Source of the DNA: Agrocybe praecox | Taxonomy: Eukaryota; Basidiomycota; Agaricomycetes; Agaricales; Agrocybaceae | Direction of reading: 5' to 3' | DNA: 64,000 bases | Assembly: GCA_964017145.1 (NCBI GenBank) | Contig: OZ024851.1 | Location: forward strand, 248,001 to 312,000 | Part shown: positions 21,951-53,800 of the stretch, in pieces | Position numbering within the stretch: position 1 is the first letter of the stretch | Layout: every line of letters starts with the position of its first letter | Made by a program: the position numbers and the translations under genes | Notes under the pieces: generated by a model | Databases searched by the model: none | Told to the model about the DNA's origin: nothing | What the model saw: the letters and a program-made list of their open reading frames with translations, nothing else

Positions 21951-22688
21951 TAGAGAGCTGTAGTCATGTGAAAGTCATGTGATTTGGTGCACAGCCACCA
22001 AAAATCAAAGTTGTAGAGAAAAATTCAAAAGTTATGCTAAATATTTTTTATTACATAATCATCCACGGTTCAGCCACAAAACGCAAAATATCCGCAGAAA
22101 GCCGGATACAAATCAAAATAAAAGATTGAAATATTTATAGCAAGCCAAAAATAAATTCTAAAATCATCAAAAAATGTGTTCTATACCATTTTAGGCTTGA
22201 ACTAACCAAATATGTAAAGTTCTAAAAATAGATCGCGCTAAAAATAGACTTATCTTTTATCTAGTCTTATCTCAGTCCCATCTATCATGCATGAAAGGCC
22301 TTTATCTCAAAATCTCAAAGTCCAAAGTCCTCTTGCCTTATTGGGTTGTTTAGATGTGACATCACTTAATAGCCTTGTGTGTTTTGTATCCTGCATGCCC
22401 CTGCCTGCTGACATCATTATTTATTATTTGTTTGTATTTGAGGCCATATAAACATATGAGTGGAGCCCAAACATGTAAATAGAGGCAAGCAAAAAGTCAT
22501 GTGCATGGATTTTGATCCCATCAAATATAAACACATGACTATCAGGTGATAAGTCACAAACAGTCACAATAAGCCAGCCAGAGGGCTTGATACATGAATT
22601 TGGGCCACTAGGCCACGGCCACTGTGGATGCATCACCTTAATTGGGCAATTACCAGAACTTGATGCATAAATCTGTCCGCACTGGCTG

Positions 22689-23991
22689 ATTGTGAAACAT
22701 GTAATACCTGTAAGCTGAGCAAACCGAGCAACCAGAAACCATATGGTCTTCTAAATCCATTATCGATACCCAGTGAACCTTGGGAGTCGATTGGGGTTGA
22801 CTTTGTAGGTCCCCTACCTGAATCTAAGAACAGAAATGCGATGTTCGGCTCAATAACCGTCGTCATTTGCTTATCAACTGCAATGGTTCATTTAATACCA
22901 AGTAGAATCAACTACAACGCTCGACAATTGGCAGAATTAATGTTTGAAGAGATTTATAAACATCACAGTATCCCTAAGAACATTATCAGTGATCTAGATG
23001 TTCTATTTACCAGTACCTTTTGGAAACATCTGCATTTGCTACTTGGAACCAAATTAAAGATGTCGAGTGCATATCACCCTCAAACAGATGGATCAACCGA
23101 ACGAGCAAATCGAACAGTTACCCAAATGCTTTGTCAATATGTGAATAACAAGCAAACTGACTGGGTTACAAAGCTTCCGGCCATCGAGTTTGCTATAAAC
23201 TCGGCCCGATCTGAGAGCACAGGTTTTGCGCCGTTCTTTTTGAACTCAGGAATAATGCCCCGATCCATGATTTGGAATGCCACACCGGCTAGTGAATTTC
23301 CATCCATCCGTAATTTTGTGCTACAGAAAGAATTAGCATTGATTTCCGCTCATGATAGCATCCTGGCTGCTTGTGCTAAGCAAACTCGAGACACAAATCG
23401 AAAACGCCAGTCAGCTCCATTCCGTGAAGGTGATCTAGTATACCTCTCAATGAAAAACATCAATTTTCCGAAAGGTTTAGCTAGAAAATTGATCCCGAAG
23501 TTCATTGGTCCGTACAAAATCATTACGGACTTCGGAAACCACTCATTTCGATTGGATATTTCATCCCAGATGAAGCAATGTGGCGTTCACGATGTATTTC
23601 ATGCGTCATTGCTTAGAATACACCATCCTAACAATGACCGACTGTTCCCCAGACGATTAGATTCACAACTGAACCCTGAATTGGATACAGATGGAGAATG
23701 GGCTGTAGATACGATTTTATCGCACCAAGGTAAAGGAGAAAATGCCTTATTTGAAGTTAAATGGAAAACTGGGGATATTACTTGGTTGCCATACTTTCAA
23801 TTGACTGGATTACAAGCGCTAATGTGATATTTCGAAGTACAGGGCATCGATACAATTCATCAACTGACTTCAGGAACCGGTAATCCACCTACTGAGGACC
23901 CACAAGTATTTCTAGGTCTTATCTCCATAAATTCTAATTCATTCACTATGTATAAGAACTCCCTTCCACCACATTCGTTTTCCTCAGTTTC
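22689..23991 (+). pseudogene. pol: Gypsy B integrase core and C-terminus
   Basis: Continues the Gypsy B frame after E1-B: zinc-binding CETCNTC, then the DDE integrase core with Asp in GVDFVGP (about 22796), Asp in DLDVLFTS and Glu in TDGSTERANRT, then the GPY/F-like segment IGPYKI and a chromodomain-like end (EVKWKTGDITWLPY). A TGA at 23825-23827 interrupts it, after which the same frame continues (YFEVQGIDTI...QVFLG) to the E4 insertion at 23991. Confidence 0.85.
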
Positions 23992-24926: not shown

Positions 24927-25779
24927 GCGACGGCACCCTTTGCAGCTACCCTGATGTATCAATCCTGGCAATTTGGACATTTCGGTATACATCATACAGG
25001 GCAGTTCCCCAACCCGGCAGTTGCCCAACAGTGATATATCACGATGCCGCAGGCAGAGAGCAGTTGCCTTTGGTAAACATATGTAAACATTGCTGTTTTT
25101 TATGTTTTCGGACAGTAATTATATGTTTCAGGCGTAGTGGTTATGTTTTTTGTTGCGATATGTCAAATATATGTTCTATATATATATTATGTTTTTTTGA
25201 TGCCCTTTGCGCACCTAAAAAGGGATGGGATGGGATGGATTAAAAAACATACATCTGGATGACGTGTTATTTATAGACGGATGCAGGAAACAGTGTCCCC
25301 GACGTGCCCGAAGCTGTAATTGGGCTCCTGCGCTTCGTTGGGCACCGTTCGGGGCGCTAAAAAAGTGTAGATATAATGTAGAAATATGTTTTGATTTTTG
25401 GGGGCGCTTTGCGCCATCAAAAGAGGACGTTATGGGATGGATTGCAAAACATAAAACCGGATGACATGTTATTTTTAGCGTGCTTTGATCTTTTCGGGCG
25501 TTGCGCTATTTTTAAATGTGATATCATCATTTTGCACTATATTTAATTTAGCCATCATGTGTTTTAAGCACAGATTAGATTAGATATCTAAAAAAGCGAA
25601 CTCTCTACTTGTTGTTTTGAGCGGCAGTTCCCTATTCGGAAATTACTACTATTTTGGGACATTTGTCACACAACTTTTTTAAAAAAAATTAAAAAAAATA
25701 AACATATATTTTTTTCACTTTAGCTTATTTACAACATATCTATGTAAAATTGCAAGGAGCAAGGGGAAGCAGGCAAAAA

Positions 25780-26350
25780 AAGAGAGAAGATGGCTGTCGT
25801 CTTTGCGTGCTCGTGCTCGTGTGCGCCTGGTCGTGGTCTTCCTGGTCATGGTCGTGGTCGTGCTGGCCTGCTCGTGTGCGCCTGCTCGTACATGCCTGCT
25901 CGTGGTCGTGGTCGTGTGCGCCTGCTTGTGTGCGCCTGCTCGTGAGTGCCTGGCCCCTGGTAGTCGTCGCAGCCGTGGTCGTCCTTGGCCCAGCCATCGT
26001 GCACGACCTACCAACCGTGCACGCCCTAGCCATGGTCGTCCTTGGCCCAGCCATCGTGCACAACCTAGCTATGGTGCACGCCCTGGTCGTCGTGCACGGC
26101 CCACCCATTGTGCACGCCCAAGCCGTCATCGTCGTCGCATGCCCTACCCACCGTGCATGACCGACCCGTCATGCACGACATACCCATCGTGCACGGCCTA
26201 GCCGTCGTGCTTGCGGCAGTCGTTGCCCTTGGGCCAGTCGTTGTTGTTGTGGAGTCATGTTCGTCACCGTCGTCGTCGTCATCATGGTCGAGGTCGAGGT
26301 TGTCATCATGGTCGAGGCCGTCGTCGTCATCGTCATCGTCATGGAGGCTT
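25780..26350. repeat. GC-rich minisatellite in the left arm of F1
   Basis: Degenerate tandem units built on CATCGTGCACGRCC and CTCGTGTGCGCCTG, with an approximate 9- or 18-base period. The inverted counterpart is at about 27500-28100. Frames rich in Arg, Thr and Ala arise on both strands from the repeat and are not genes. Confidence 0.7.
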
Positions 26351-26545
26351 CCCTCGTGGTCATCGTCGTGGTGCAAAGCCCACATCCCTACGATGAGGGA
26401 GGGGGGGTTGGGGAGTTGACAGCGGCTGTGATGGTGGTTGATAAGGAAGGAATCAACCATCAAATGGTTGATTTCTTCCAAATCCGGTAGCTTCCCACGC
26501 CGGCCCGGTGTATAACTGGGTCGAGCTCATCGCCCCGATCAACGA

Positions 26546-27225
26546 TGGGAGGTGCTACAGTCATATTTTGAATACATACATTTGTAAGTTAGGTATTAGA
26601 AGCTAATAAGAGTTGTTTTGTGAAAAAAAAAAAAAAAAAAACATATGAAATAGAGTACTATATTCATCTTGGTATGAACAGCAGTATTGTTCATTCCTCA
26701 TTTCGGTGAAAATTCAATACATTGGTCAGTACCATTCTGTATAGTGATATTTTGAGTACATGAAATTGTAGATTAGATATTAGTAGCTAATAAGAAGTGG
26801 TTTCAAAAAACAACTAAAAAAAAACATACGAAATATAGTACTACATTCATCTCGGTATGAACAACAGTATTGCTCATGATCTTTCATTTCGTTGCATGAT
26901 TCAGATATCAGTCAATACCACTTTGTGTATTGGGCTGAGGCCCTAAAATTTTTGTCATTAACATTTTTAATGTAACTTAAAAGTAGTATTCATATTTAGC
27001 TATGATATATGTATGGTGCTATAAGTGTAATACATTTTATTCTGTAGAGAGATGGCACGAAATCACCACGTACAACGTATGAAACATATGTACCTATGTA
27101 TTTGAACTTAAAAATTTGAAATTCCTTTTTTTTTGTTTACTTTCAGCTACTTTATATATTAATGACATATCTACCTACTTATATCTACTCACATCACTTA
27201 TATCTCACCTCCATCGTCAAGCACA
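26546..27225. repeat. AT-rich spacer of F1 with an internal duplication
   Basis: A segment of about 190 bases occurs twice in tandem: GCTAATAAGA followed by an A-run, then ATAGTACTA and CATTC-ATC, then GGTATGAACAGCAGTATTG, at about 26.57-26.75 and 26.76-26.93 kb. No gene is seen. It would form the loop of the foldback structure. Confidence 0.6.
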
Positions 27226-29029
27226 ACGATGAGCTTGACCCGGTTATACACTGGGCCGGCGTGGGATATTACCGGATTTGGAAAAATCAACCATTTGATG
27301 GTTGATTTCTTCCTTATCAACGACCATCACAACGACCACTATGACTTGGGCCACTACCACTACAACCTGGGCCATCACCACCACTACGCCATCACGACCT
27401 CTACAACGACCAGGGTGACAACAACGACAGCTAGGGCGACAACGATGACGGCGACAACGAACACGATGACCCAATGACGACGACGGCTGGCTCAGTGGCG
27501 ATGACTGCCACGAGCACAACGGCTAGGGCGTGCACCTTGGCTGGGCCAATGACGACGATGCCTGCGACGACGACGATGGCTTGTGCGTGCACGATAGGTG
27601 GGCCAGGGCGTGCACCATAGCTAGGTTGTGCACGATGGCTGGGCCAAGGATGACCACGACCACAAACGCCAACACGAGGGAAGCCTCCACAACGACGACC
27701 TCAACCTTGACCATGACAACGACGACCACGACCACCTGGGCCACCACCACCACCATGCTCTTGATGACGACCGCGACCTCGACGACAATGACGGCTAGGG
27801 TGATAACGACGATGACCAGGGCGACAGCGACGACGGCGACGAAGACGACCCCACAAAGACGACGACTGCCCCAAGGGCGACGATTGCCACGAGCACAACG
27901 CCTAGGTTGTGCAAGACGGGTCGGTCGTGCACAATGGGTCGGTCGTGCACGACGGGTATGGCGTGTAGGGTGTGCACGACGGGTAGGGCGTGCACGGTGG
28001 GTCGGTCGTGCACGATGGGTGGGGCGTGTAGGGTGTGCGCGATGGCTGGGCCAACGACCACGACGGCTGCGACGACCCGAATGCGAGCAGAACAACGACT
28101 AGGCGAGCACGAGCATGAGCACGACGACCAGCACGCAAAGACGAGAGCCGTCGTCTCTCTTTTTGTGCGTGCTTCCCTTCGCTCTTGCTTCCCCTCGCTA
28201 CATCCACTTGTAGATAGCTCTTTTGTAAATTAATATGATAGAAAAATATATGTTTTTTTAAAAAAGAAAACATTATATGTTTTGTGAAGAATGTCCGACA
28301 ATAGTAGTAATTGCCAAATAGAGAACTGCCGCTCAAAACAGAAATAGACAGTTCGCTTTTTTTTATACATATCTAATCTAATCTGTGCTTAGAACACATG
28401 ATGGCTAAATTAAATATAGTGCAAAATGATGATATCACATTTAAAAATAGCGCAACGCCCGAAAAGATCAAAGCACGCTAAAAATAACATGTCATCCGGT
28501 TTTATGTTTTGCAATCCATCCCATAACGTCCTCTTTTGATGGCGCAAAGCGCCCCCAAAAATCAAAACATATTTCTACATTATATCTACACTTTTTTAGC
28601 GCCCCGAACGGTGCCCAACGAAGCGCAGGAGCCCAATTACAGCTTCGGGCACGTCGGGGACACTGTTTCCTGCATCCGTCTATAAATAACACGTCATCCA
28701 GATGTATGTTTTTTAATCCATCCCATCCCATCCCTTTTTAGGTGCGCAAAGGGCATCAAAAAAACATAATATATATATAGAACATATATTTGACATATCG
28801 CAACAAAAAACATAACCACTACGCCTGAAACATATAATTACTGTCCGAAAACATAAAAAACAGCAATGTTTACATATGTTTACCAAAGGCAACTGCTCTC
28901 TGCCTGCGGCATCGTGATATATCACTGTTGGGCAACTGCCGGGTTGGGGAACTGCCCTGTATGATGTATACCGAAATGTCCAAATTGCCAGGATTGATAC
29001 ATGAATCTAGCTGACAAGGCTGGCGACGG

Positions 29030-31386: not shown

Positions 31387-31850
31387 TGTCAGGGCAACAC
31401 TAAGATCAGTGTGACAAGGCCACCAACAAAGACAAAGCAAGAGAGAGAGAGAGAGAGATGAAAAGAGAGAGAGACACTCAATGGTTCTAAGAGATCACAC
31501 CAATGATAGTGGATATCCTAAGAGATTGGAGCTGGGGCTACAGCTACCTACATGTCCAGTATATATACCCTACAGCTATTCTAGAATATTCCTACATTAC
31601 ATCATGAAACAGAAGTATGAGTAAGACAATGACATCATGAAACAAGGAGAAGAATGATGTGGAGCAAGTGAGGCAGTGCTCATGGGAAATAAAGATGATA
31701 AGTATCTAATCAAAGATCTGAGTGATAATCAAGAAGATAATCAAGGAGATAATCAAAGATGTAAAAGAGATAAGATATCTACATAATTAAGAAAGGGAAA
31801 AATACGAAATAAATATGGAAAAATAGGGGAAAATAGGGGAAACCCTGACA
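31387..31850 (-). repeat. Solo LTR of Gypsy A type; right junction of the inversion
   Basis: The reverse complement of the Gypsy A LTR, from TGTCAGGGCAAC to AACCCTGACA, with no internal region beside it. GCAGG follows at 31851-31855; its duplicate is the CCTGC at 11210-11214 on the other side of the inverted segment. It is slightly shorter (464 bases) than the Gypsy A LTRs. Confidence 0.88.
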
Positions 31851-32086
31851 GCAGGCGTAGTGGTGTTGCATTGTTGGCGCCAAATAGGATAGTTATGTTT
31901 TATAAATATTTTTACATTTTTCGGCGCTTTTTGCACACTTAAAATAGGACGGGAAGGGATGGATGGCGAAGGATGAGTTTGGATGACGTTTATAAATAAC
32001 ATATTTGGGTTTGACAGGCGTAGCATTATATTTAGCACACTCGATATAATTAGTTTTCAGGGTTCCTGAGCTTGTCATACGAAATG
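31851..32086 (+). repeat. Inner left arm of the KDZ element
   Basis: Reads GCAGGCGTAGTGGTG... to GGGTTCCTGAGCTTGTCAT and is the inverted counterpart of 45372-45595 with few differences. It is cut from its outer part by the solo LTR and the inversion. Confidence 0.85.
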
Positions 32087-32343
32087 ACTCAGTGTTCTAT
32101 ATATACCTAAGCCTAGACCATGGTCCATTAATTGACATCATAGCATGTGATATATTCCAATGTTCAGAAAATATTTGTGAAATGTACGACATATAGTAAA
32201 TAGAGCAAAAAAAGTGTATAATGTTTGTTATTTGTATGTTATTGTTCTATGTACAACCAGAAATTCTCCAAAAATGTGTTATCGATGGCCAATCAGGAAA
32301 CGCGACGTTCGAGAGATAACAAAAAAAGAGTGAAATATATCAC

Positions 32344-35300
32344 TCAAAAAGGGTTGTCGTACACATCGTCATCAATGCCAAGGGCGTCCTGCTCTAGATG
32401 TCCATAGTCGCGCTCACCGTCGTCGTCGTCATCGTCGTCATCATCATACTCATCATCATCATCATTATCATCCTCGACCTCCTCGACGCCTTCTGCCGAT
32501 GTTTGAGATTCATTTCGATAGCCAACTTCCCCCGCTCGTGAATTCGTATTGATGATGGGCGGATCTTCCTCCACGTGGCAGTTGTCAAGCGATTTTTTCC
32601 ACCGAATGAGGAAGCTGTCAGCAAGCCCTTCTTGAATTTTGGCCTGTGTTTCTGCATACGCGTCGAGACCTTCGGCAAGTTGGGGTGAAAGATGTTCAAA
32701 GCTGCCTATTCTGTCTCGCCAATCTTTCGCTCTCCAACGAAGATACGCCCCCACGCGTCGTATCTCCTCCTTGAGGAGTAAGAACTCATCCTTTGCCCTA
32801 CATGCCCGCGCCCGGCTTTTTGCCCACTCGGAGAGTAATATATCGTCCTTCTCGTCCTCTTCAGTAATCGCGCCGGCAACCATCCATATCCACGACAATG
32901 TTTTCCGAGTTTCCCCTGTGCCATCTCGACGACTTCGAGGCTTGTTGAGGAGAGAAATCTCCTCCTCCACGTTAACTGTACGATGCTCTGTTTGGTCATC
33001 GTCCAGTGTTCCTGGACGGCCAACCTTCTCAGAGAGCTTTTCCGGGTCCTGATAGCTCCGCACGTCATTGTCGAGGAGGACCTGGTATGTTTTCTCCCAG
33101 TCGCCGGGACCTTCAAGTGCCATCTTCGCCTGTCTTGCAACACAATACTTATCAACAGATCGACGAGCATGAAGATGCACTGCATCTATCAAAGCTCTGG
33201 ATCGCGTACCCTCTCACTGACTGCGCACGTTCCGATTTTTGAATAGAATCATACATTGTTTGAGCTTCAAAGTTCGGCGAAGAGCATCCAATGCGTCACT
33301 GCATTGTGCAGTACGCATTTTAGCCTCGATTTGTGGTAATCCTGGGTAGCAAATTGCTGCACGTACTGGCTCTGGTATGAGGGATGGAAGGGCGATGATT
33401 ACGTCCTCAGGGTTGTCAGACTTCGGAACGAAAATATTGGTGGAGGATGAGCGACGGCAGTCATTTTGATACTGCAATAATCCGGGCATGTAGATAGGTA
33501 GGAGTAGTTCCCAGGCACAGATACGATTATGCAATGTGTTTTGTTGCTCAGTGATCGAGCCCTCCTTTCGCACCGTGGACAGTGAATTAGGGTCCTTTGC
33601 AGTACGTTGAAGCCGACGTCTTGGAAAAAATAAGTGATGATGAGTACAAATTGGCAAGGCGCTGTGAGAGGATAAAAAAAAAGACATACTGTGCATGTTC
33701 GAGATCAAGTGCCAGTAAGATGAAAGAAGATGGGGAGGTTTCGTGAACTTGCATGACTCCGGAGTTGATGAGACGCTTGTCTTCATCAGCAAATTGTTTT
33801 TGGACGGATGCCTCTGAGATACCTAGATAAACCAGGGTATGCATTAGTAAGGTATCAGAAAACAGAAGAAGGAACGCTTACTTTCGCCGCCAGTGTGATA
33901 AGGATTGAATATATTTTTCGGGAATGATGCCTTCTCCCATTCTACACACAGACGTTCCCATTTAAGAGAAGTCCCCTGCCGAAGAGTGGAAGTCAGGCCA
34001 CGATGACTTTCTGTGAGGAGGTTGCGATCTGCGACTGCCGCCCGATAACGATGTGCGAGAGTTCTTCCCTGCCCAATGTACTTCTCCCAATTCCAGAAGC
34101 CAAAATGATTGTCCAATACATCGTGTCTCGACCCAGGTGCCTGAGTCTTCGTCGCGTTTCCAAGGGCATTGTGAGGACTCCAAACGCGCTCGGGGCATTC
34201 ACAGTCCGTTAGTCCAACACCATGTATGTAATTGAGCGAATAGATTTGGTGGCCTGCTGACTGATGCATGGGTTCATGAAGCTTCGGTATGGCAGGGGTG
34301 AGTTCAATGCCAGGTGGAGGCTTGATACTTTCAGGCCAATGCTCGTCGATACGTTTGAATAAATTTGTGAACCATTGGCAGGCCACGTCGTAGCTGATCA
34401 AAACGAGCGTGACAAGAACGCTTTGTAAGGCCGACCCAAAGACGTAGTCCATATTACAGTATCTGACAGGACATGTAAGAGAACGTTGGGTATGTAACGC
34501 AGAAGAAATAAGCCTACCTTTCTCCCTTGTGTAAGTTACCGACCCCGACTGGGAATATCATCTCTGAACGCCTGCATACGGTCAGGTTGACGCCGGTGTA
34601 CCGTAGTCCCCTCGAAAATTTAGTGTTTGCTTTTGTTAGTGCTTGAAACCCCACGCAGGTGCTTATCTGAGAGACTTGTTAAGATAATGGAAGTAACACC
34701 AGAAGCTCAGAACTGAATACGCACATCCTCATCATCGGCCCTGCTTAAGACGTACATTTCATACGGCTCTCGAGGCACCATATACCCCCATCCTATGCCG
34801 AGACCTGGATCCTGGGAATAGTTCGAGACCAGCTGGTTTTTCAAGCGAAAGTTGGCGTCCATACAGATAATTACCATGTACAGGAACCTGCGATATTAAT
34901 CAGTATTAGAAAGACAGAGAGAAAGGGAGTAAAATTGATACGTACTTCATATCATCTGGAACATTCTCCCATCCATCTGGCAGGTTTATTCCAGGATAAG
35001 GACACGAGGGGCACTTGATAGCCAGTTCTCCCGCTTTTGTACCATCAGCTCCTGTGGGGTCATGCGCGTGACCAGCCCATTTCAACATTTTGAGGTGACG
35101 CCACTGCATTATCATGCGGAAAAGGGCTCGGTAACGCGATCGCTGGTGATGAAGGCCGGTGCTGTCCGTCATCTTTTCCAGAGCACGGTAGAAGTCATAA
35201 GTAGAGCTCTTGGTTGTAAGCACGTACTTGTGGAGTTGATCTAGCAGCTCGAATGTGGCGCAAGCTTTCGGATTAAGTTGGGTTGCTGGGTAAAGTCGGC

Positions 35301-36184
35301 GCCGAAGTAGCTGAAGATGGTATGGGATCGATCGAGTGCAAGCACAATATTGAATCGCAACCTCGTGCATGCCATTAGTATGTAAAACGAGAAGTCGTGA
35401 ATGACAAGGAGCAGGGTTTTCGCAGTTCAACGCAGAGTGGTTGAGTTGTATTTTCAACCCTAAGGTCTTGAGGGTCACGTTTTCAAAATGAACGCCGTTC
35501 CACTTCTGGAGGAAATGTAAATTAGACTGATGAAGAATAGGGTATATAATTATAGAGAGGTACTCACCTTGATGCGATGCAAAGGTAACTCTCGGTGGCG
35601 TTTTACGCAGCAAGGGGCGCAACAAAGGTCGGGGACCAAGCACTCTTCACATCGATAGATGGGAGAACCAGGGGGGTTACTCCTCCTTGAGATGCAATCT
35701 GCACACTGTTGAGCAGCAGTAAAGTCCCCTCGACCCGACCAGCGCAAGATTTCCTCCAGGTAAAGCTGGCGATATTTTTTTTTCCATACGACATGTGGAC
35801 GTTTCTATAATAAAGTCTGAGTTTCGGTGATAATGAGTTTAAGTCCAACTTACAGATATTTCGGTTCTTTTTCTTTTTTTGCACCTGCTTGACGACACAT
35901 CCACCATAATCTCGCCGTCCAGTACGTTATTGAACAACTCTGTCGTGGGATCAAGAGCAAATTCTTCATTATCTGGTGGCTCCCAAGAAGAAGCAGTCTC
36001 CCATAGAGTCGCAGGCAGCGCGACGTCTCACACAACTGGAGCCGTCAGCACCGTATTGCCCACCCGTCGCAGCTTGCCCTCATGCGTGGATCATATTGTA
36101 CGCTCCAAACACCGGAACTTCGTCGTGAAATGCTTGACTCGTGGCTTTGCGAGGTTTCTTCTTTGGTCGAGCCGACATATTTAA
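32344..36184 (-). pseudogene. KDZ (Kyakuja-Dileera-Zisupton) transposase with CxC2 cluster
   Basis: A multi-exon transposase. After a basic start (MSARPKKKPRK at 36184) comes the CxC2-like cysteine cluster (about 35.57-35.73 kb: CADC, YRCEEC, CCAPCCVKRHRELPLHRIK), then HFENVTLKTLGL, the KDZ core with FRLKN and SRGLRYTGVN (34.6-34.9 kb), YDVACQWF (34.37 kb), ECPERVWSPHN and DNHFGFWNWEKY, and a C-terminal helical part with EWAKSRARACRAK and a long Asp/Glu tail. The family is recognised by this order. Broken by TGA at 33214-33216 (family Arg in a GQREGTRS-like motif), TGA at 36028-36030 and a frameshift near 36070. Introns I checked (for example the one ending near 33610) keep GT..AG. It diverges from the TET-like gene. 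Confidence 0.85.
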
Positions 36185-36484
36185 TGAAATCTGTACGAGT
36201 TAGACCTGTATGCGCGAATTGGAAGGTCTTACAGACCTGGGTTACAAGTTTCTATTTTTGGAGCGACATTCGCGAAAATGGATCACATGCTCCGATTGTG
36301 TAAGCATGATTTCGGTTGTCAACTGAAATTAAACACATTTTTTTTAGGTTCACAACTTGCTCCAGCAGAAGAGTGCGGTGCCCAAGCCCGGGAACTCTCT
36401 CGTCAGCTGAACTCTTATTCGCTTTCCCTGCTACTTTACTGCTCTCACCTTTACCTCTGCTTCTCTCATCTTTGCCGATTTCAG
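36185..36484. promoter_or_regulatory. Shared divergent promoter region of KDZ and TET-like genes
   Basis: About 300 bases between the KDZ start (36184, minus) and the TET-like start (36485, plus). It is CT-rich near the plus-strand start and has no clear TATA box. Head-to-head spacing this short suggests one control region for both genes. Confidence 0.5.
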
Positions 36485-38048
36485 ATGGAAGTGGTGGCCT
36501 CTTTCGACCACAATTTTGATTTCGCGTCTTTACTCCAGGCTACCAGCCAACTGCAAGACGACAACGAACTTGATCCAATACTGTTCAGCCTATCGCTAAT
36601 GTCCTCTATTGGAGAAAATGACTCCCAAGACGACGCTATCGAACCACTTCATCTTCGACTACCCACCCAGCAACTCAACGAGTTCGAAACTGATCCCCTG
36701 TCAAACATCCAATCCAATACTATCTCCGTTCATCCTGAAAATAACGACCCACCGAAAGAAGTGAAAGCGAATGGATCCAAGAGGAAACAACGAAATAAGG
36801 AACATAGCCGTGCTGCTCGCAAGAGGAGAAGAGAAGAGAAGAAAGCTACTCAGAAAATCAGCGATTACAAAGTGTGAGAGGACGTACGCAAGCTCTTCAT
36901 GGACGAAGCGGAACCAATTCCGTGCTCCTTCGACTTCTCCGCTAGCAGAGTAACGAAGTCGGCCTACATTGGCACCGATGACGGCTGTCGTTCGAAGGTC
37001 ACTTACACCATCAAAGAAATAGAGGAGAAACTGGGCTTCAGGGTTCAGAAGTGGGATGGAGAGTGAGTTTTTGTGCGACTTTCTTACGTCCGTTGCTAAT
37101 TTCCCCACAAAACTTCTATGCCTATCATTGACCAACACCGACGATTCTTTGGTCTCCTCGCTGGGCACCCAAAGGCCGATAATTGGACGGAGCTACACCA
37201 GCAAGCTGCCGCCGCTATGGAATCTTGCAGGCCTCGCTGTGTCATTCCGAAACCCAAGAAGAATAAACCTCCAAATCGACGTGGAAAATTCATTACTCTC
37301 AGTTGCAGCGTCTCTCACAGCGGCGGTCAGGAACGTCCTGGAAATCTGCGCCCTGATGGATCGAAAGAAAATGGCCCTAATGCCCAGGTGTTGAAGGAGC
37401 TCATGAAACTTCCTATTTTCAAAAGGCTCGCAGGCTTTGTATCAGGTACATATCGTTGAATTTCTTTCCATTCATGTATGACCTCATCAATACTTCTTAC
37501 CAGCTGCAATAGCTACATGGGCACCAGGCCTTCATGACCACTACGCCCACGCTTTGTGCCAGCTGCACGATGCCCACCCGGAGCTCAAGCGTGTCTTTGA
37601 CAACAGCATTCTTTCCGTGTTCACATACAATCTTGGCCCTCGAACCATCTGCTTCAAACATAAAGATTTCGGAAATTTACCCTACGGATTATGCGCCATC
37701 ACTGTGTTCGGTAACTACGACCCAACTCGAGGTGGCCATCTCATTTTGTGGGAGTGTCGCCTCGCTATTGAATTCCCCCCTGGATCCACCATATTAATCA
37801 CGTCCGCCGTTGTCAGCCACTCCAACGCCTCAATTCTCCCACATGAAACTCGCTATTCGTTCGCACAATATACAGCTGGTGGCGTATTTCGCTGGGTCGA
37901 TCATAAATTTTTGTCAGCCGACAATTACTACAGACTTTTTACGCTGGAGGAATTAGCACAGGTAATGGACAAGGAGGCGCAACGCTGGGTGGATGGTCTT
38001 TCTCTACTCCCCATCATTGACCCCAAATTGCCGAACCGTTCCCAGTAG
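36485..38048 (+). pseudogene. TET/JBP-family 2-oxoglutarate/Fe(II) dioxygenase
   Basis: A relative of the enzymes that oxidise 5-methylcytosine or thymine in DNA. Three exons: N-terminal region from ATG 36485 with a basic KRKQRNKEHSRAARKRRR stretch near 36.78 kb; a middle exon (37111-37455); and the catalytic exon (37506-38048). The double-stranded beta-helix signature is complete: HKD (iron-binding His and Asp) near 37660, FGNY, GGHLILWE, the distal His in SHSN (37820) and the 2-oxoglutarate-binding Arg in ETRYSF (37851). Decay: TGA at 36875-36877 and loss of the first intron's acceptor (CACAA where CACAG is expected, about 37110). I infer former DNA-base oxidation from the fold; the substrate cannot be read from sequence. 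Confidence 0.83.
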
Positions 38049-38194
38049 TGTAGCTAGTTATTTAAAATTCATGTGGTACTTTGAACTTGCAACAATTATA
38101 TCTTGTCATGCCTCACTGTTAAACCTGCGTGGTGATTTCAGGCACCCAACTATTGTCTTTTTAAAAAAAAAACAAAGGTATAACAGCTACTCTT

Positions 38195-38580
38195 GTCGTT
38201 CAAAAATTTATAAAATCATTTGAAATGGTTTAAATGCACACCTCGGTATATTTTTAAGGGCAGTGTATGCGAGGTAATGAATCATAAAATGATCTTCAAG
38301 TTGAAAGTGCACGAAAGTTCATATTCCTTAATTGGAATGTTGAACTTCGCGTCCGCTTCAAGTTGACCTCATTCTTTCTGCTTGCTTCTTGTTCAAAAAA
38401 TTATAAAATCATTTGAAATAGTTTAAATGCACGCCTTGGTATATTTTTAAGGGCAGTGTATGCAAGGTAATGAATCATAAAACGACCTTCAAGTTGAAAG
38501 TGCATGAAAGTTCATATTCCTTAATTGGAATGTTGAACTTCGCGTCCGCTTCAAGTTGACCTCGTTCTTTCTGCTTCTTG
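38195..38580 (+). repeat. Tandem duplication downstream of the TET-like gene
   Basis: A unit of about 190 bases occurs twice, starting TTATAAAATCATTTGAAAT and ending near TTCTTTCTGCTT. The copies differ mostly by C/T and G/A changes (CACACCTCGG/CACGCCTTGG, GCGAGG/GCAAGG, ATGATC/ACGACC, CACGAA/CATGAA). No coding potential. Confidence 0.75.
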
Positions 38581-39024
38581 CTTTTTGAACTCATGCATTT
38601 ATTATATACCCAATGAAGTCATCGTATTCAGATCGCGAACAAGTACCCAATAACAACGATAGACAGCGCAAATATTATTATGAGTGAGTAATAACATTTT
38701 TTGAGTCTTGATACTCAGCTTACAACAAGTTTAGAAATTTGTATGTGGAACGTATGCGAGATTATTTCCTCGACATAGTTGTAGTTTTGTTGTTTCAGAA
38801 ATAAAACATTCACACATTTGTTAAGGCGCAAAAATCATTCATTAATGGAACAAAATGAAAAAAAAAAAACATTGCCTCGAAGGACCTATATAAATACGTA
38901 GCATACGGCATGATCATAGGGCATAGTGTATAGAGCATAAGTAGCAAGAAGACGGGCATACTGGCAGGCAGATAACGAATGTTACGAGGAGATGTAAAAT
39001 AAAAAGATTAGGAATTGAACATTT
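38581..39024. other. AT-rich spacer between convergent cargo genes
   Basis: No gene. It holds the likely 3' signals of the TET-like gene and of the minus-strand cargo gene ending at 39025, including an A-run near 38861. Confidence 0.4.
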
Positions 39025-42000
39025 TCAGTTCAATTCAGCGATGTCGTCCAAATAAGAGGGGTCGATGTCTGAGAGATCCCCGAATTCACTGTCAACCTCC
39101 AGCATGACCGTATCTTCGGGGTTTGGGAGCACAGTGTAGGGCGGAGGGGAGATATCAGGGTATGTAGGAGGTTGGGACGAAGGTGCAGAGGGCGGGGGTG
39201 GAGGAATTGGTATAGCAGGAGGCGGTGGAATATTCGAAAGCAGTTGAGGAGGCGGCGGCGGAAGAGCAGGAGGTAGTGGGATATGCATGTATGCAGCAGG
39301 TGGGGGCAGAGGAGGCTGACTGACGGGTGCTGCTGACACTGAGGCGAACGGAGCAAGAATGTGAGCTGCGGAGAGGGGCGCAAAAGAGGTGGACGCAAAT
39401 GGTGCTAAAGAAAAGTCAGTGTTAGAGAAAGAGGGTGGTGCAATGGGCCGGGGTGTTGCAGTGGCCTCTTCTAACATGGCTGTGTAGTCGAGAACGTCGG
39501 GAGTTTGGGCAACAATACACTTCTTCTGATTGTTGACGGGCGTCGATGGTGTCTTGCGTTTAAGACGAGAGGAGATTGTCTCGTCGTTGGTGCCTTCTTC
39601 ACTGTCGGTGGATGCTTTGCACTTTCCTTTCCCCTTACGATGTGCTCGCTTCTTGACGTTGATGGCATTACACTTGTCGTCCTCTTCGTCCTCATCGCTA
39701 GCGGTGACTTCTAGCTCAGAGTATGGTGCGGTCTCTGGCATGTCCTCATATAGAGGGGAATAATACTTCCTAACGATTTTTGTTTTCTTCTTCGGCTGTG
39801 CGTTCTTAGTCTGGCGGAATGATCGGTTTCGGTTCGAAGGGCGTTCATTGGTGGTCCGGGTAGGTGGGGCAGAGACGGATTCCGAAAAAGAGATAGGTTG
39901 TTGAGTAGGTGCAGGGTCAGAAGCAGGGAAGGAAAATGAGCAGGCTGCGTCCACAGCTGCCAGGATGCGGCTTGCATGTTCTTTCGGGTCCAAAAGTCTT
40001 CGGTTCGCAAGGGCTGATGGCAAGCTTGTAGCGGCAATGTTGTTTGGAGCCTTTCCTTTAGGAGATGACTCGCTGTTGACCTCCTTTTCAATCCGTGAGG
40101 TTGGTGCATATTTCTTTATTGCCGGGTCTCCAAGTGCCACCGCATATTTGCCAGTTGACGAAAGTTCCGTAATATTTTGTCGGGTTCTGGTGCAGCATGT
40201 CCCTGCATTTCCACACCTCAGTGCCACTGATCGCGTGCAGCGCACCGTCTCTGGAGAGTCGGCTTCTCCATCCGTAAGGGTGTCCGTACCTGATTCGGAG
40301 CTTTCAATCCAGATAATATCTGGATTAGCACGTGCAGAGGCGGGTGGGTGAGCAGCGCAAGGGAGAGGGCGAGGTGCAGAGATAGAAGGTGCAGGGAGGA
40401 GACGTCAAGGAGCAGGACCGGTGAGAGCACGCCTCGCCTCGCCCTGTCCAAGACCAAGACCAAGAACGTCGGCTACGTTAGAAGAGGTTGCTGCAGATGC
40501 GAAGGTAAGGAGTCGTTGGCTTCAACGGGGGCGCTCTGTCATGTTGCGACAAGATGGAGGCGTCGGAGTGTCGACGGTGCGCGCGATAGCCAACATACGT
40601 TGAACCCAAGAGGAAAATGCTGGAGCAGGAGGTGTATCGACGGGGATGGGGTTCTCTCGTGCGCCAGGTTGCGATTCTACCTTCATGGTAGCTTTCGATG
40701 CTGGAAGCTGATGTTGGACAGGCGGTCCGGACACTGGGGCAGGGCGTTGGAGAGGTTGAGAGATAGGAGCGGTGATCAATGGAATACCACCAGAAGTGGA
40801 CAAGGGCACCACACCGCGAAAGAGAATGCCGTTGTAATAGGCAACTCCCTCTTCACGAGTGTTGAATCGCACGAGGAAGAAACACCGATAGGCGGTGACA
40901 TCGAAAGAACGAACTTGCCTATACATCACGAAAACAAATCATGAGTGACAGAAGTAAGGCTTGATAATAAAATCACTTACTCTTCTTGTTCAAGAATCGC
41001 AACCGTGCCATCTGCGACAACGACCCATGTAGTCGTGTTGCCTTGAGGGCGGTTTACGCTCGGTGCCTCGATGTCCAGCCAGTGCTATCAAATTTATGTA
41101 TGAGTGATGCATAGTTGCCCCACATAAAGTATGCATCCACAGGGGCAACTGCCCAACTGCCCAAAGTGATGCATCAAGCCCTCTGGCTGGCCTATTGTGA
41201 CCATTTGTGACTATAGTCATGTGTTTGATATTGATGGGATCAAAATCAATGCACATGACTTTTTGCTTGCCTCTATTTACATGTTTGGGCTCCGTTCAAA
41301 TGTTTATATGGCCTCAAATACAAACAAATAATAAATAATGATGTCAGCAGGCAGGGGCAGGCCTGCTACAAAACAAACAAAGCCTTTGAGTGACATCACA
41401 TCTAAACAACCTAATAAGGCAAGAGGACTTTGGACTTTGAGATTTTGCAATAAAGTCCTCTTAATGCCATGATAGACAGGACTCATACATGACCAAATAA
41501 GATCAAATCTATTTTTAGAACACATCTATTTTTAGAACAATCACAAATTTGCCAAATACGATGAAGTTATTTTTAGAACACATTACATATTTACATGGTT
41601 TATGAAAATCTATTTTTAAATTTTTTTAATGAAAATAACTTTGGTGGCTGTGCACTAGATCACATGACTATGCTGTGGCTATGCATCAAATCACATGACT
41701 TTCACATGACTACGCCTCTCTAGTCACTGTTGGTCACCCTGATGCATCACTTTGGGCAGTTGGGCAGTTGCCTCTGTGGATGCATACTTTATGTGGGGCA
41801 ACTTAGGTTGGGTCATGCATACATCTGCCAGTAACAGGTGCGATGTCCATGGGATCGTCCTCGTTATCTATAAGTCGGGGTCAATGGGGCACAAACCGTA
41901 GCTCAACGATGGCACTCACGCGTGTTACGAACCTTGTCCGCGTTTTTTCGATCATCTGCAATGTAGTAAACACATTCAGTGCACTGTAATAGCCGTCTAA

Positions 42001-42033
42001 GAAATAAATACACGCACCTTTTTTCTGTGCCAT
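39025..42033 (-). pseudogene. KDZ-element cargo gene 3: Pro-rich protein, split by E1-C
   Basis: Starts at ATG 42033 (MAQKK), has short introns after the first and second coding exons, then reads through DNEDDPMDI to the E1-C insertion at 41840. After removal of E1-C with one TSD, the frame continues (MDIEAPSVNRPQGNTT). It runs through a globular segment TWVVVADGTVAILEQE and SFDVTAYRCFFLVRFNTREE, then a long Pro/Ser-rich region and a Pro tract to ELN at 39028. A basic RKGKGKCK cluster lies near 39640. In-frame TGA codons are at 40522-40524 and 40405-40407. I do not recognise the family; it is presumably a standard passenger of this element type. Confidence 0.65.
41076..41840. mobile_element. 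E1-C, third copy of E1, inside KDZ cargo gene 3
   Basis: A 765-base element starting CAGCCAGTGC and ending AACAGGTG, with perfect TSD CGATGTC (41069-41075 and 41841-41847). Interior shares long stretches with E1-A (ATGTTTGGGCTCC, CAAATACAAACAAATAATAA). Its inverted ends are diverged from E1-A and E1-B but keep the arrangement GATGCATCCACAG...TTGGGCAG. Confidence 0.87.
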
Positions 42034-42704
42034 GGTCTGAAACTTGTGGTTGGATGAGTAAGGTGTTTTAAGAATATTTATGCAGAGCAGAAGGGGTGAA
42101 TGCTGGCAAAGAAGCTAAGATGGCTGTGTTCTTATGACAGAAAGAAGAACAAATATCTGTAAAGGAATAAACGGACATCGATCTCGATTCATTGCTCGGT
42201 GTGGGAAGGGTTTCGTGAATCTGGAAAAGGTCAGTGAGGGCAAGATAGATTAAATATGAATGTTTATCCCAAATATCGGAGCTTACATGATTTGGCGATG
42301 CCGGAATGGACTACAGGCGCCTCATGCGAAAGGAGTCCTTGCCTGAACAGGTGCGTATGTATTCAAAATCCTATAGAAATATGGAATAAGCAATGATAAA
42401 ACAAGTAAATATGAAGGAGGGGGGGCCGTACGTACACCTTTGCCGACATCTCTCATATAGTTTACGCTGCGCGCCGCGCATCAGGAAAATTTTTCCTATC
42501 CAGTAGGATGGTCCTAAAACAATTCGTTAGCTATCATGTGTACCCATCTCAAATCGGGAGGGTACGTACATCGGGAGCACTTCCATATAACGGATAGTGC
42601 GTGAATTTCCACCCATTTCCTTGTACTTGACGTCGGATCCTTGCTGTCCTGTGTTGTCTCTTCGTTTCCCTTTGTCGTCCAAGTTCCATCCAAGTTGCCG
42701 TAGA

Positions 42705-45098
42705 ATGCCCAACCCGGGTAGTTTCCACAGAGCGAGGAAAGAGTTCCTCATGAGCCAAAAGGAGACCTATGCTGCAGGCATTAAAGACAATTATGTCTGT
42801 GAAGCCGTGTCCTTCATTCAGCGGAGGTACTTCAAGAGATTTCCTATCAACTTACCTCATGAGCAGGACCCACCTCCGGAGATTCTTGCCTCAATCAACG
42901 ATGACGATCCCGATCCCGAACGTCCCCCACCCTACGCAGACAGTCTTTCAGAGGAAGATTACGCAAAAGCTATGGAGGAACATAACTCTCGCCAGCAACT
43001 AATACAGCATCGCAAATCTGTAAGTTCGTTTCCAAATTTAGATGTGTCATGTGACTTACCGACTATTGTTACATAGCAAATTAAACGATGGCTGGCATAT
43101 CAGTATATGAAGGACCACGATCTCAAAGACTCGGGAGGATACAACCCTTACCGCTCTCTTCTGCAAAAGATATCTGGAAAGGATGGTGTCGCCCCCGACG
43201 TAAGACAGCTTCAAACGTCTGGCGCTGATCTCATCGCGAACAAATCGAAACTCGTGTCAAGATTTATGCCGCTGCCCATGCTCTGGAAAAGAAACAATAT
43301 GCTGCGTTGCGAGACAGGTTCGCCAAAGAAATGTTCTTCAATCTTTCTGAAGAAGAGCAACAACACTGGGTTGATGAAGCGGAAGCGGAATATACGAAGG
43401 ATTTGGAAAAGTAGAAGGTACAGAACAATGCCGCTGTTTCTACTTCCCCTGCGGATCGCCAGAAGTGCCTCTTCATTTCTTTTCTTTGTATTCAAATGTG
43501 ATTGCTAATTTCTAACCTCTGGCTCAGGGCAATTCAGGGTCTCGTCGATTTCGTCCAACCTATCTTGGACTCAATAGCTGAGGCTACCGAGTGGAAAGTT
43601 ACCTTGATGGCAGGAGGTCCTGAGCCAGTACATAACAGTAAACTCAACATAATCAGGTATGTTTTATATCTTTCTATTTGACCTATCATAATCTTACTTA
43701 TCTCTTAGTATACACTCTGGAACCGTACCCGGAGATGTAAGAATGAATTTCGGCACTGCTGAACGTTTGCGTTACAAGAAACACATCGTCCCCGTCTTCA
43801 GCTCGTTTCTACAGAAATGCTACAGTAAGTAATCTCTCTGAATCTTTAAATACGTTCTAGCCTAACATATTTTCCAGGTCCTGACGAATGCCGTGCCCGC
43901 GCACTCGAAGCTGGAGAAGTTGAATCGGACCTTCCTTGCCTGGACTTGAACCTCAACACCAACGGCCATATCGACGTTCTCAGTGGTGTAGACGAGGACA
44001 GCGTAGACATAAGTCGTGGACGCACCTCACCCCCTCCTCCGTACGTGTCTGCAAATGACCATGTATCGTCTTCCTCGTCTTTTGTTTCCCCGGGATCCAC
44101 GCTTTCTGTTTCTCATGAAGCCCACACGTCACCTTCTCCTTCCTCAGACAGCTCTGCACACCCTTCGGCTTTGGAAACACCATCAATTAACTCTACTTTG
44201 GACAACCTCCCGCCCGCTGCTTTGGACAACTCGTCGACCACTCCTCCACAAACGTCATCAACTTGTTCTTCGGCCAGCCCATTATCTGCAGGTTCCTCTG
44301 TCGCTCAATTACCCCCGCTATCTCCGCCGCATGCTCTGCTTGCATCTTGCCCAAATAGCCCCAACATTTCGCCAGCACCGTTACCAAAGGTTTCTATCAC
44401 CCATCTGCCCCATGTACCTGCTGATGACAACATCGTGTTGACCCGCGTTGGGTCGAAAAGGAATGCCCACGATCTTTTGACAGACGTATCTTGCGACACA
44501 CATCCTTCGAAGCGTGCACGGGTCGAGCTCGAACCTTCTTCACCTTCGCCCAATCCAGACTCCCAGGACCTTGCTTCGGACTATTTTCCTCGAACGTCAT
44601 CGGCACCCCCCCCCATCTGGTACTATTCCATGGCTGGATAAAGGGATGGAGACCCTGCAGTCTGAAAACCTTGGAAGCGAGTGGAAAGAACTTCTTGCTA
44701 TCTGGTCAACGTACGCCTCCGCCGAGCCTTCAGAACAGACTGGTTCGCTCTCTGCCAAGAAGCGCCCGGAGGAGGTTGGGATATGGATGAAACGTCACAG
44801 GAACGCCAATTACTATCCTCGCCTCAATGCCGACAAATTCACCAAGGCATTCATCGATTGGTACACGTCCCTTCAACCGGAATGGCGCGTTGTAAATGGC
44901 ACAATCAACTTCTCTTCAATTACAGGAAATTGGGAAGGCTTCCGCAAGACTGGACCTAACGGCACTCTTATCATAATGGTGGCCTTGTTTCACTGGGGCC
45001 TTGCAGTACAGGGGCGTGGAGAGGCAGCACGGAAGCTCTGGTTGCTATACTTGGAGGATTGCCGTCGTTTATTTACATCTTTTTCTGTGCCGTCTTGA
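42705..45098 (+). pseudogene. KDZ-element cargo gene 4: Ser/Pro-rich protein of unknown role
   Basis: ATG 42705 (MPNPGSFHRARKEF) opens a basic N-terminus. An intron at 43021-43077 leads to IKRWLAYQYMKDHDLKD, an HMG-box-like helical stretch (YAALRDRFAKEMFFNLSEEE) and then, through further short introns, AIQGLVDFVQPILDSIAEAT and MNFGTAERLRYKKHIVP, a long Ser/Pro region, and a C-terminal globular part with EWKELLAIW and LQPEWRVVNG. Broken by a small indel near 43190, TGA 43226-43228, TAG 43412-43414 and a frameshift in a C9 run at about 44607-44615. I infer a passenger gene of KDZ elements; no function is proposed. Confidence 0.65.
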
Positions 45099-45371
45099 AT
45101 TTCGCTCACCGTATGCCCACTATGTTTTATGCTGCTTATGTACATAAAATGATATATGTTTTTTTATGCTGCCTTTGCTCGCGCGTATGTACCTAAGTTA
45201 TAAAAGTTTATAATGTTGCTACGTCTACAACGAGTGTTGTTTTATTTTTATGACACTTCTGGAAAACATTTGTCAGCACAGATATATTTGTTTGTCTCGT
45301 AAGACAGATTGCACAATCGTGATGTCACCAATCTAGACTTAATTTAGAAATCAATGACATGTCGGATATGA
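45099..45371. other. 3' flank of cargo gene 4
   Basis: AT-rich, no gene seen. It separates the cargo gene from the right arm of the KDZ element. Confidence 0.4.
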
Positions 45372-45789
45372 CAAGCCAGGAACCCCGAAAACTAATTATA
45401 TCAAGTGTGCTAAATATAATGCTACGCCTGTCAAACCCAAATATGTTATTTATAAACGTCATCCAAACTCATCCTTTGCCATCCATCCCTTCCCGTCCTA
45501 TTTTAAGTGCGCAAAAAGCGCCGAAAAATGTAAAAATATTTATAAAACATAACTATCCTATTTGGCGCCCACAATGCAACACCACTACGCCTGCAAAGCT
45601 TAAATACAACCCCAGACCACTTAAAAGAGCATTGTTTATCACTATTTACCAAGGGCATCTGCTCTCTGCCTGTTGATGGCCTGCGGCAGCCTCAAATACA
45701 TGCTGCCGGTGTGGGCAACTGCCCTCTGTGATGTATCACCAAATCCACTTTTTGCCAGGATTGATACATCAGGTTGGCTGCAAAGGGTG
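45372..45789 (-). repeat. Right arm of the KDZ element
   Basis: A 418-base arm whose reverse complement starts CACCCTTTGCAGCC. Its outer 0.2 kb matches 11210-11409 and its inner 0.2 kb matches 31851-32086, which is how the displaced left arm was recognised. It holds GATGTATCA motifs at two spots near the terminus, as do the foldback elements. Confidence 0.88.
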
Positions 45790-46138
45790 GGATCCAGGCC
45801 AGATTATCGACGAACTGCACCACAGTATTGGTCGCGAAGGTGATGTCTGGATGTGTTCCCGTTGATGCGTACATCAGTGAGCCTACGGCTTCACGATATG
45901 GTACATTTTTCATTCGTGCAATGTTGGCTAGGGTAGTGGGGCATTGCAAACGAGACAGGGGCTGATTGGGATCGATAGGGATCAACGAGGGCTTCAGGTC
46001 ATCGAAATTGAAACACGTCAAGATCGAGTCGATGTAGGCTTGCTGGGAGAGGGATATGGTTTTGTTGAGGTGGTCATGCTCGATTTTTACATCGAGGAGC
46101 CAGGAACATTCTGCCTTGGTCAGTAATCTTGTACTTCT
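45790..46138 (-). pseudogene. Copia A reverse-transcriptase end
   Basis: Minus-strand Copia Pol from KKYKITDQGRMF through a one-base frameshift to WLLDVKIEHDHLNKTISLSQQAY, then LMYASTGTHPDI and VDNLAWI at the KDZ-element TSD. It joins in frame to WIHWEAVKR at 11410. The upstream part was cut by insertion of Copia B at 46139. Confidence 0.85.
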
Positions 46139-50880: not shown

Positions 50881-53800
50881 CACCCTTTGAAGGTACTATG
50901 ATACATGAACCCTCGGAAACTACCCAACAAGGGTGATACATCCACACCGGAAGTTTGCCAGTCCCGGCAGTGATATATCACCCATGCTACAGGCAGAGAG
51001 CAGCTGCCTTTGGTAAACATATGTAAACATTGCTGTTTTTGATGGTTTCGGAAGGTAATTAGGCACTGCAGGCGTAGTGGTTATGTTTTTTGTTGTGATA
51101 TGTCAGATATATGTTTTAAATATATTTTATGTTTTTTTGATGCCCTTTGCGCACCTAAAAAGGGATGGGACGGGATGGATTAGAAAACATACAACCGGAT
51201 GACGTGTTATTTATAGGCGCACGCAGGAAACAGTGTCCCCGAAGTGTCTGACGCTGTAATTGGGCTCCTGTACTGCGTCGGGCATCGTTCGGGGCGCGGA
51301 AAAAGCCCAGATATAATGTACAGATATGTTTTGATTTTTTGGGGCGCTTTGCGCCATCAAAAGGGGGCGGGAGGGGATGGATTGCAAAACATAAAACCGG
51401 ATGACATGTTATTTTTAGCGTGCTTTGATCATTTTGGGCGTTGCGCTATTTTTACTTATGATATCATCATTTTACACTATATATCATGTGCTTTAGGCAC
51501 AGATTAGATTAGATATGTATAAAAAAAACGAACTGTCTACTTTTATTTTGAGCGGCAGTTCCCTATTCAGCAACTATTACTATTTTCGGACAATCTTCCC
51601 AAAACATACAATTTAAAAATAAAAAAAAGATATATTTCTCTATTTACAAAATATCTATATGCGATTGGACGGAACGAGGGAACGCAAGAGTGAGGAGAAG
51701 CACGCAAAAAAGAGAGACAATGTCTCTCGTATTTGCGTGCTGGTCGTCGTGCTCGTGCTCGTGCTTGCCTGGTCGTCGTCGGGCTCGTACTCAGGTCGTC
51801 GCAGCCGTCGTCGTCCTTGGCCTACCCATCGTGCACAACGTATAGGTCGTGCATGCCCTACCCATCGTGCACAACGTATAGGTCGTGCATGCCCTACCCA
51901 TCGTGCATGCCCTATACGTCGTGTACAGCCTACCCATCGTGCACGACTTACCCATCGTGCACGCCATACGCGTCGTGCACGACCAACCCATCATGCACGA
52001 CCGATGCGTCATGCACGCCCTACACGTCATGCGCGCCCTACTCGTCGTGCACGACCGACCCATCGTGCACGCCCTACCCATCGTGCACGACCAACCCATC
52101 GTGCACGGCCTGGCCGTTGTGCTCGTGGCAATCGTCGCCCTTGGGCCAGTCGTCGTTGTGGGGTCGTGCTCGTCGCCGTCGCCCTAGCTATCGCCTTTAT
52201 CACCCTAGCTGTCGTCGTCGTCGTCGAGGGCGTGGTGGTGGTGGTGGTGGTGGTAAGAGATGAGGTGGCCGTGCGTCGGTGGTGGTGGTGATGGGAGTTG
52301 ACAAGGAAGAAATCAACCGTGATGGTTGATTTCTGTCCAAATACGGACGTTTCCCACACCGGGCCGGTGTTGACCGAGGGTCGAGTTCATCGTCGCGCAC
52401 GACGATGACAGTAGAACAAAACTGTTTTAAATAGAGCTAAATATATTATATGACATAGTAGTATGTATTAAACTATAAGAGTAAGTAAAAATATACACTT
52501 TATGTTTTTTTCGTATGAAAACATCGGAATGTATGCATGTACCAGCCTTATGAGGTGATTTCATGACGGATCTCCACAAAATAAAATTTATTACTACTTG
52601 GAAGACCATATATTATACACTTTTAAACATATGTCTTCGCTTTAAACTATCTAAAGAGTGCTAATGTAAAAAAAAAATGGCCCTCAGATTGATGTACAAT
52701 ACGATAACTGTCGATGTATAAATTATGCATCGAAATTCAATCCGAGCAAAAGTGGAGGTTCATCCTCATGATGATTCTGTATGTTGTTTTGGTATGTTTC
52801 ACTTTTTATACATTATATGTTATAGCAGTATGTATTAAGTAGTATATGTAAATAAAAACAAAAATGATATGTTTTTTCTCATGAAAACATCGGTATCTAT
52901 GTATATACAAAGCTTGTGAGGTGATTTCGTGACAGCTCTCTGCCAAATAAAATTTATTTCTACTTGAAAGACCTCAGAATTTACACTGTTAAATGAATGT
53001 CTTCATTTTAAACTACCTAAAGAGTACAAATATACAAAAAAAAAAAAAAAGGACCTCAGGCTAATGTACAATATGATATTCGTCGATGTCTAAATTATGC
53101 ATCGAAATCCAAGACGAGCAAAGGTACTGCTCATACTCATGATCATCACATATGTCATTTTAGGTATGTTTCAAATTTTTTTACATAGAATAGATTTATT
53201 ACACTATTATAGTACAATGTGCTATTTTATTTGATCAAAAAACCCGTGTAGGCCCCCTCATCGTCGTGCACGACGATGAGATCGACCCGGTTATAAGCCG
53301 GGCCAGCGTGGGAAACGCCGGATTTGGAACAAATCAACCACATCACTGGTTGATTTGTTCCTTGTCAATGTCCATCATCACCACCGCGAACGGCGTCCCA
53401 TCGCACCACCTCATCTTTCATCATCACCACCACCACAAACAACAACGGCAACAGCAATGACAACGACAGCAACGCCGACAGCAACGATGACAGCGACTGC
53501 CACCACCACAACGACGGTGACGACAGCAACAACAACGACAACGACATCTAACCCCTCAGGGAGAGGGTAGGAAGAGGCGAACGAGCGAGCGAGGGGAAGG
53601 GTTGGCAGGAGCGAGAGGGGTATCGAGGAGGCAGCCAGCAGCAAGCGCGCAGGCACAAGCAGGTAGGGCGAGCACGAGCGAGCGCCTAGCCAGCAGCGAG
53701 CGAGCACGTAGCCACCAGCTAGCGCCTGGCTACCAGCGAGCGCGCAGGCACGAGCGGACAGGTAGGGTGGGCACGAGTAAGCCCCTAGCCACCAGCGAGC

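Follow-up and report, generated by a model that had tools for sequence, protein, structure and literature searches.

A dead Kyakuja-type KDZ transposon of Agrocybe praecox and its four genes, including a TET/JBP-type dioxygenase and a predicted HMG-box protein

A 64,000-nucleotide stretch of the Agrocybe praecox genome (assembly GCA_964017145.1, contig OZ024851.1, positions 248,001-312,000 of the forward strand, labelled C12:248001-312000; hereafter the window) contains a real Kyakuja-type KDZ transposon, a dead copy, whose genes form two divergent pairs: a KDZ transposase with a TET dioxygenase, and gene 3 with gene 4. Our overall account, to which we give a probability of roughly 0.6, is that this is a decayed autonomous Kyakuja element in which the KDZ protein would have carried out cut-and-paste transposition, with gene 4 as a DNA-bending cofactor, gene 3 as an adaptor and TET as an optional module. 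The account builds on directly observed features, namely the termini, target-site duplications (TSDs), terminal inverted repeats (TIRs) and gene order of the element, its recurrence, selection on its genes, the matching divergence of TET and gene 4, and the damage to the window copy. Gene structures were worked out by comparing the window with three full copies (C8, C7 and C5), and the host genome searched comprises 59.17 Mb in 347 contigs.

An earlier note on this DNA had described a bounded element with inverted arms and a 7-base TSD. The arms (31851-32068 and 45377-45594; 218 nt, 98% complementary), the TSD and a right end at exactly position 45789 all stand; the proposed left terminus at 31851 does not, since this is the point at which a solo long terminal repeat (LTR) interrupts the left end of the element. 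A DNA search gave 40 TIR matches, and an alignment of 20 of them placed the true ends about 195 nt farther out than the arms. The family has ends of two types (CAGCCTTGTCTG.. and CACCCTTTG..), and the window element has CA..TG termini, an exact 7-bp TSD (GGATCCA) and TIRs of about 420 nt, of which the outer ~19 nt differ between the two ends and the remainder is ~98% identical. Before its ends were separated the element was about 14.1 kb long, counting an insert of ~740 bp that resembles a miniature inverted-repeat transposable element (MITE). Exact 7-bp TSDs also flank all five of the other copies in which both ends were identified (GATATCC in C8, CCTGTCG in C2, CCGCAAT in C6, CAGGATT in C7 and GTCGTCG in C4; additional copies have one end in view), and this confirms our reading of the ends. 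Assignment to the Kyakuja clade follows the 7-bp TSD and the TET type, as set out in passages of PMC12730594, rather than a transposase tree; the same passages give Zisupton an 8-bp TSD. The window also holds two non-autonomous relatives of about 4 kb with the same Kyakuja termini, at 24934-29022 and 50881-54820, with long inverted repeats (97.5% and 99.8%, respectively) and exact 7-bp TSDs (GCGACGG and GGGTGGG).

The outer part of the left end lies some 20 kb away in inverted orientation (Table 1), and matches the right terminal sequence at 99.5% across 182 nt. Because both termini are flanked by GGATCCA, a single insertion is the most likely origin of the two pieces. The displaced piece (11210-11409) adjoins an LTR of a Gypsy element at 3873-11209, and the solo LTR at 31387-31850 is akin to the LTRs of that same element; either about 20 kb was inverted by recombination between inverted LTRs, or the assembly is wrong there. 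The latter, an assembly error at near-identical LTRs with no biological inversion, is a serious contender to which we give a little less than even odds: both breakpoints fall within copies of a single LTR family, no matching TSD (GTTAA versus GCGCA) flanks the LTR locus presumed to be the partner, and the assembly has stretches that appear twice (C1 and C4); however, the two halves lie on one contig, within 20 kb and in opposite orientation, as LTR recombination predicts.

Table 1. Parts of the Kyakuja-type element and of the insertions that interrupt it (window positions)
Position	Strand	Feature	Basis
11210-11409	-	Outer ~200 nt of left end, inverted, 20 kb off; terminus CAGCCTTGTCTG at 11409	
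11410-11416	-	Left TSD copy, GGATCCA on minus strand	
31387-31850	-	Solo LTR inside left TIR; 5-bp TSD GCAGG on both sides	
31851-32079	+	Inner part of left TIR	blastn pairing with 45367-45594
32344-36184	-	KDZ transposase with CxC2 domain; several exons; in-frame TGA 33214-33216	Pfam; three-copy comparison
36485-38048	+	TET/JBP-type dioxygenase; three exons; head to head with KDZ; in-frame TGA 36875-36877	
39025-42033	-	Gene 3; two stops and MITE insertion	
41089-41827	.	MITE-like insert of ~740 bp in gene 3; 88-nt inverted arms; foreign to the element	
42705-45098	+	Gene 4; about five exons; frameshift ~43190; TGA 43226-43228; TAG 43412-43414	
45367-45789	-	Right TIR; terminus CACCCTTTGCAG on minus strand	
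45790-45796	+	Right TSD copy, GGATCCA	

The KDZ transposase proposed earlier is present on the minus strand, with matches to PF18758 (E = 1.3e-31, 110 bits) and to PF18803, CxC2 (E = 1.3e-37, 129 bits); across the host genome, matches to the KDZ domain number at least 176. The TET protein has a basic N-terminal region, and its catalytic exon carries, as had also been proposed, an HxD motif (37659-37667), a distal His (37818-37820) and an Arg (37851-37853). Both His residues and the Asp are invariant in all 14 genome copies and the Arg is kept in at least 90%, and none of the four catalytic residues varies among 15 chosen homologues. The possibility that the dioxygenase falls outside TET/JBP was not borne out, and its membership is weakly marked: motif and homologue annotation argue for it, and Pfam scores remain sub-threshold. 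The window protein reaches 17.1 bits against Pfam Tet_JBP (cut-off 34.9), sub-threshold matches were obtained for 8 of the 14 genome copies and 7 of 10 tested database homologues, and when the genome was searched with Tet_JBP, the 11 places matched (one above cut-off) included none of the TET loci given by our first TET query. Homologues at E <= 0.001 number 283, the best 120 of which are, where named, Agaricomycete by name; they include Coprinopsis cinerea CC1G_12955, with the UniRef name 2OGFeDO JBP1/TET oxygenase, a relationship drawn from homology search rather than a tree. A structure model of the exon alone had a predicted local distance difference test score (pLDDT) of 39.7, too low to be usable for judging the fold, and comparison of the protein with PDB sequences gave no relevant match. 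In the host genome the TET query gave 61 matches, and a second, distant query gave 108 exon matches. Downstream of the gene a 193-nt stretch is tandemly duplicated at 94% identity (38192-38577).

The two further genes noticed beside KDZ and TET are indeed present in the window. The gene 4 protein has conserved N-terminal, middle (GGPEPA) and C-terminal domains, and the predicted model of a gene 4 homologue has an HMG-box fold in the middle domain; judged by that model, gene 4 looks like an HMG-box protein with a predicted ability to bend DNA. Pfam HMG_box matched 7 of 13 cut-out gene 4 members (best E 0.024), one of them with 15.1 bits against a cut-off of 25.4; among 26 full-length members it gave no match at E <= 1. 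The middle domain resembles in fold the HMG-box proteins Abf2p, SSRP1, TFAM and SOX18; gene 4 differs from them in having three more conserved domains, for which no convincing relatives are known, and in being encoded by a transposon.

The gene 3 product is mostly of low complexity, with a short conserved N-terminal domain, a C-terminal PPPY motif, an acidic C-terminus and a hydrophobic-acidic motif that we take to be like a SUMO-interacting motif (SIM). A search with the C7 protein gave 29 matches, or 22 merged loci, 17 of which lie within 10 kb of gene 4. At the gene 3 position related elements have a gene with an RNase H1 N-terminal domain (PF01693, Cauli_VI), as at locus L081 (36.2 bits, cut-off 21), and one such gene sits on a contig where TET gave no match. 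A genome search at E <= 1 gave 28 PF01693 matches, half of them (14) in divergent orientation to gene 4 and 645-1777 bp upstream of it; of the 12 above cut-off, 7 are placed in this way. Within the window's own subfamily, a profile search did not find PF01693 in the N-terminal peptides of three copies, and hhalign of the gene 3 N-terminus with PF01693 gave a probability of 1.6%; because the domain is not demonstrable there, we infer the RNase H1 N-terminal identity of gene 3 from position. The genes at this position in related elements (L081:3968-5225) carry VIVISDSESD, VVVIDDSDDE and similar stretches that resemble SUMO-interacting motifs. The insert in gene 3 belongs to a MITE-like family of ~740 bp with long arms, found at 9039-9781 (in the Gypsy element), 21951-22691 and 41089-41827 (in gene 3), with a ratio of observed to expected (o/e) CpG of 0.11-0.33.

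Are genes 3 and 4 linked to KDZ beyond the window? Merged loci in the host genome, assembly duplicates included, number 137 for KDZ (from the best 150 of the 176 matches), 59 for TET, 22 for gene 3 and 101 for gene 4. Within 10 kb, gene 4 has a KDZ neighbor at 67 of its 101 loci and a TET neighbor at 48, and TET has a KDZ neighbor at 40 of 59; random positions were near KDZ in 4.2% and near TET in 1.9% of cases. Among 15 TIR-bounded intervals, paired by hand from the TIR matches, two are free of genes and 10 of the remaining 13 hold all four, although two of these ten (C1 and C4) look like a single stretch assembled twice and some intervals contain nested extra copies; two others lack a TET match and one lacks a gene 3 match. 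Three KDZ-gene 4 stretches (two of them near-identical) appear to have no TET, as 120 TET proteins gave no match there better than E 0.022. In Gymnopilus dilepis, gene 4 and TET share small contigs and have consecutive locus tags. Distances among TET genes follow those among gene 4 copies (Mantel r 0.85 for 12 elements and 0.88 for 9), which indicates that the two have co-diversified. The linkage that the earlier note had made a test of its proposal is thus found elsewhere, and the counts support genes 3 and 4 as cargo that recurs in KDZ elements.

The window copy is not intact: all four of its genes are broken by stops, a frameshift or an insert. C8, C7 and C5 have the same four-gene order and orientation as the window and about 72% DNA identity where aligned, most non-coding sequence being unaligned, and they are not all undamaged: part of TET is missing from C8, and in C5 it is frameshifted. 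Five of the six in-frame stops in the window oppose an arginine CGN codon in the compared copies (three copies for KDZ, two for TET, one for the two stops of gene 3 and one for gene 4). This fits decay at CpG sites and falls short of proof, since third positions also differ. The proportion of nonsynonymous differences is below that of synonymous differences in 60 of 60 exon comparisons, most weakly in gene 3 and with synonymous differences near saturation, which demonstrates, as far as such comparison goes, purifying selection on the coding parts.

The earlier note had also suggested that the element could have modified methylation at its own DNA. In the window, CpG o/e values of 0.029 for the Gypsy element and 0.90 for the TET-bearing element at first suggested CpG protection by TET, which we reject as a TET effect: mean CpG o/e is 0.956 in 12 gene 4 regions called TET-bearing, chosen by hand and including a doubtful one (L075) with unusual gene order, and 0.953 in 12 TET-less regions taken from 27 gene 4 loci with KDZ and no TET within 15 kb. 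CpG content is thus equal with and without TET, and the DNA has no sign of TET protecting its carrier. The Gypsy element itself has nine CpG dinucleotides in 7,337 bases, six of them in a probable MITE insert at 9039-9781, although its open reading frames are still long. Outside the element, 1-kb bins range from 0.49 to 1.32, and extreme CpG avoidance or CpG loss would account for its composition. Eight top KDZ loci (L001-L008; GC 0.36-0.38) have CpG o/e values of 0.31-0.55, unlike Kyakuja elements, which are near 1.

The KDZ-TET linkage in Agaricomycetes, which the earlier note rightly called established, and TET-bearing Kyakuja elements are already published (PMC12730594). Passages of that paper (Kojima 2025) give TET-bearing Kyakuja of Agaricomycotina the same features as ours, namely a KDZ gene with an AG-type TET/JBP gene, a 7-bp TSD and 5'-CA..TG-3' termini; Kyakuja-1/2_LB are described there without TIRs, whereas the window element has TIRs of ~420 nt with non-identical outer ~19 nt. 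Rust-fungus IS3EU elements (PMC12730594) are likewise DNA transposons with TET and another cargo gene in fixed order, but belong to another transposase superfamily and carry alpha-kinase genes. The KDZ elements of Marasmius oreades (PMC8290104), also from an Agaricales host, have TIR motifs characterised in a supplementary figure, and the passages covered mention no cargo genes. The TET of the window shares HxD...H...R with CcTet of Coprinopsis cinerea (H326/D328/H376/R385; PMC11040006), with H-H and H-R spacings of 53 and 11 against 50 and 9 in CcTet; equivalents of CcTet Gly331 and Asp337 could not be placed. We found no description of genes 3 and 4 in the portions covered of PMC12730594, PMC11040006, PMC8889193, PMC8290104 and PMC7473861, and a word search of the main text of PMC12730594 gave no mention of HMG or RNase H.

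In the account we prefer, the KDZ protein would cut and paste the element, and gene 4, as the element's own HMG-box protein, would bend the long TIRs or open chromatin, letting the ends pair. Host HMGB proteins assist RAG and Sleeping Beauty, and we liken gene 4 to these; because it is found at more loci than TET, gene 4 may be a near-core factor. Gene 3 would be an adaptor at the divergent partner position, which in related elements is held by a protein with an RNA:DNA-hybrid-binding type of domain (RNase H1 N-terminal). TET would oxidise 5-methylcytosine, and perhaps N6-methyladenine, keeping the genes expressed or the element mobile, as an optional module apparently absent from part of the family.

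Alternatively, the four genes might act as an anti-silencing module and not form a transposition complex, with gene 3 as an RNA:DNA-hybrid-binding adaptor that recognises transcribed element DNA, the HMG-box protein of gene 4 opening it and TET oxidising 5-methylcytosine there. The RNase H1 N-terminal domains at the gene 3 position of related elements, the matching divergence of TET and gene 4, and the oxidised methylcytosines reported around Coprinopsis Kyakuja elements by a source quoted in PMC12730594 would all fit; however, gene 4 and the gene at the gene 3 position also occur where no TET was found, CpG retention is not linked to TET, and the domain is not demonstrable in the window's subfamily, and we regard this alternative as unlikely. 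Another reading takes genes 3 and 4 not for cargo but for passengers, or for what is left of independent elements inserting by chance near KDZ. It might be argued from the 34 of 101 gene 4 loci without a KDZ match within 10 kb and from the many nested insertions in the window, but is largely refuted and very improbable given the constant gene order and strand of TIR-bounded copies that have exact TSDs, the purifying selection, the TET-gene 4 distance correlation and the shared Gymnopilus dilepis contigs with consecutive locus tags.

We put forward only tentatively the broader idea that Agaricales Kyakuja elements are four-protein machines for both mobility and anti-silencing, made up of a transposase, an HMG-box architectural protein supplied by the element itself, an adaptor that binds RNA:DNA hybrids and an optional TET oxidase, with the HMG-box gene, not TET, as the most constant partner of the transposase; if so, these KDZ elements would come with a DNA-bending cofactor of their own. 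The equal CpG content of TET-bearing and TET-less elements argues against the simplest self-protection reading of why fungal transposons carry DNA-base oxidases. The present findings bear on that question by placing TET in a set of four genes that are inherited together, and the more constant HMG-box-like partner would point to concrete proteins for excision, targeting and demethylation.
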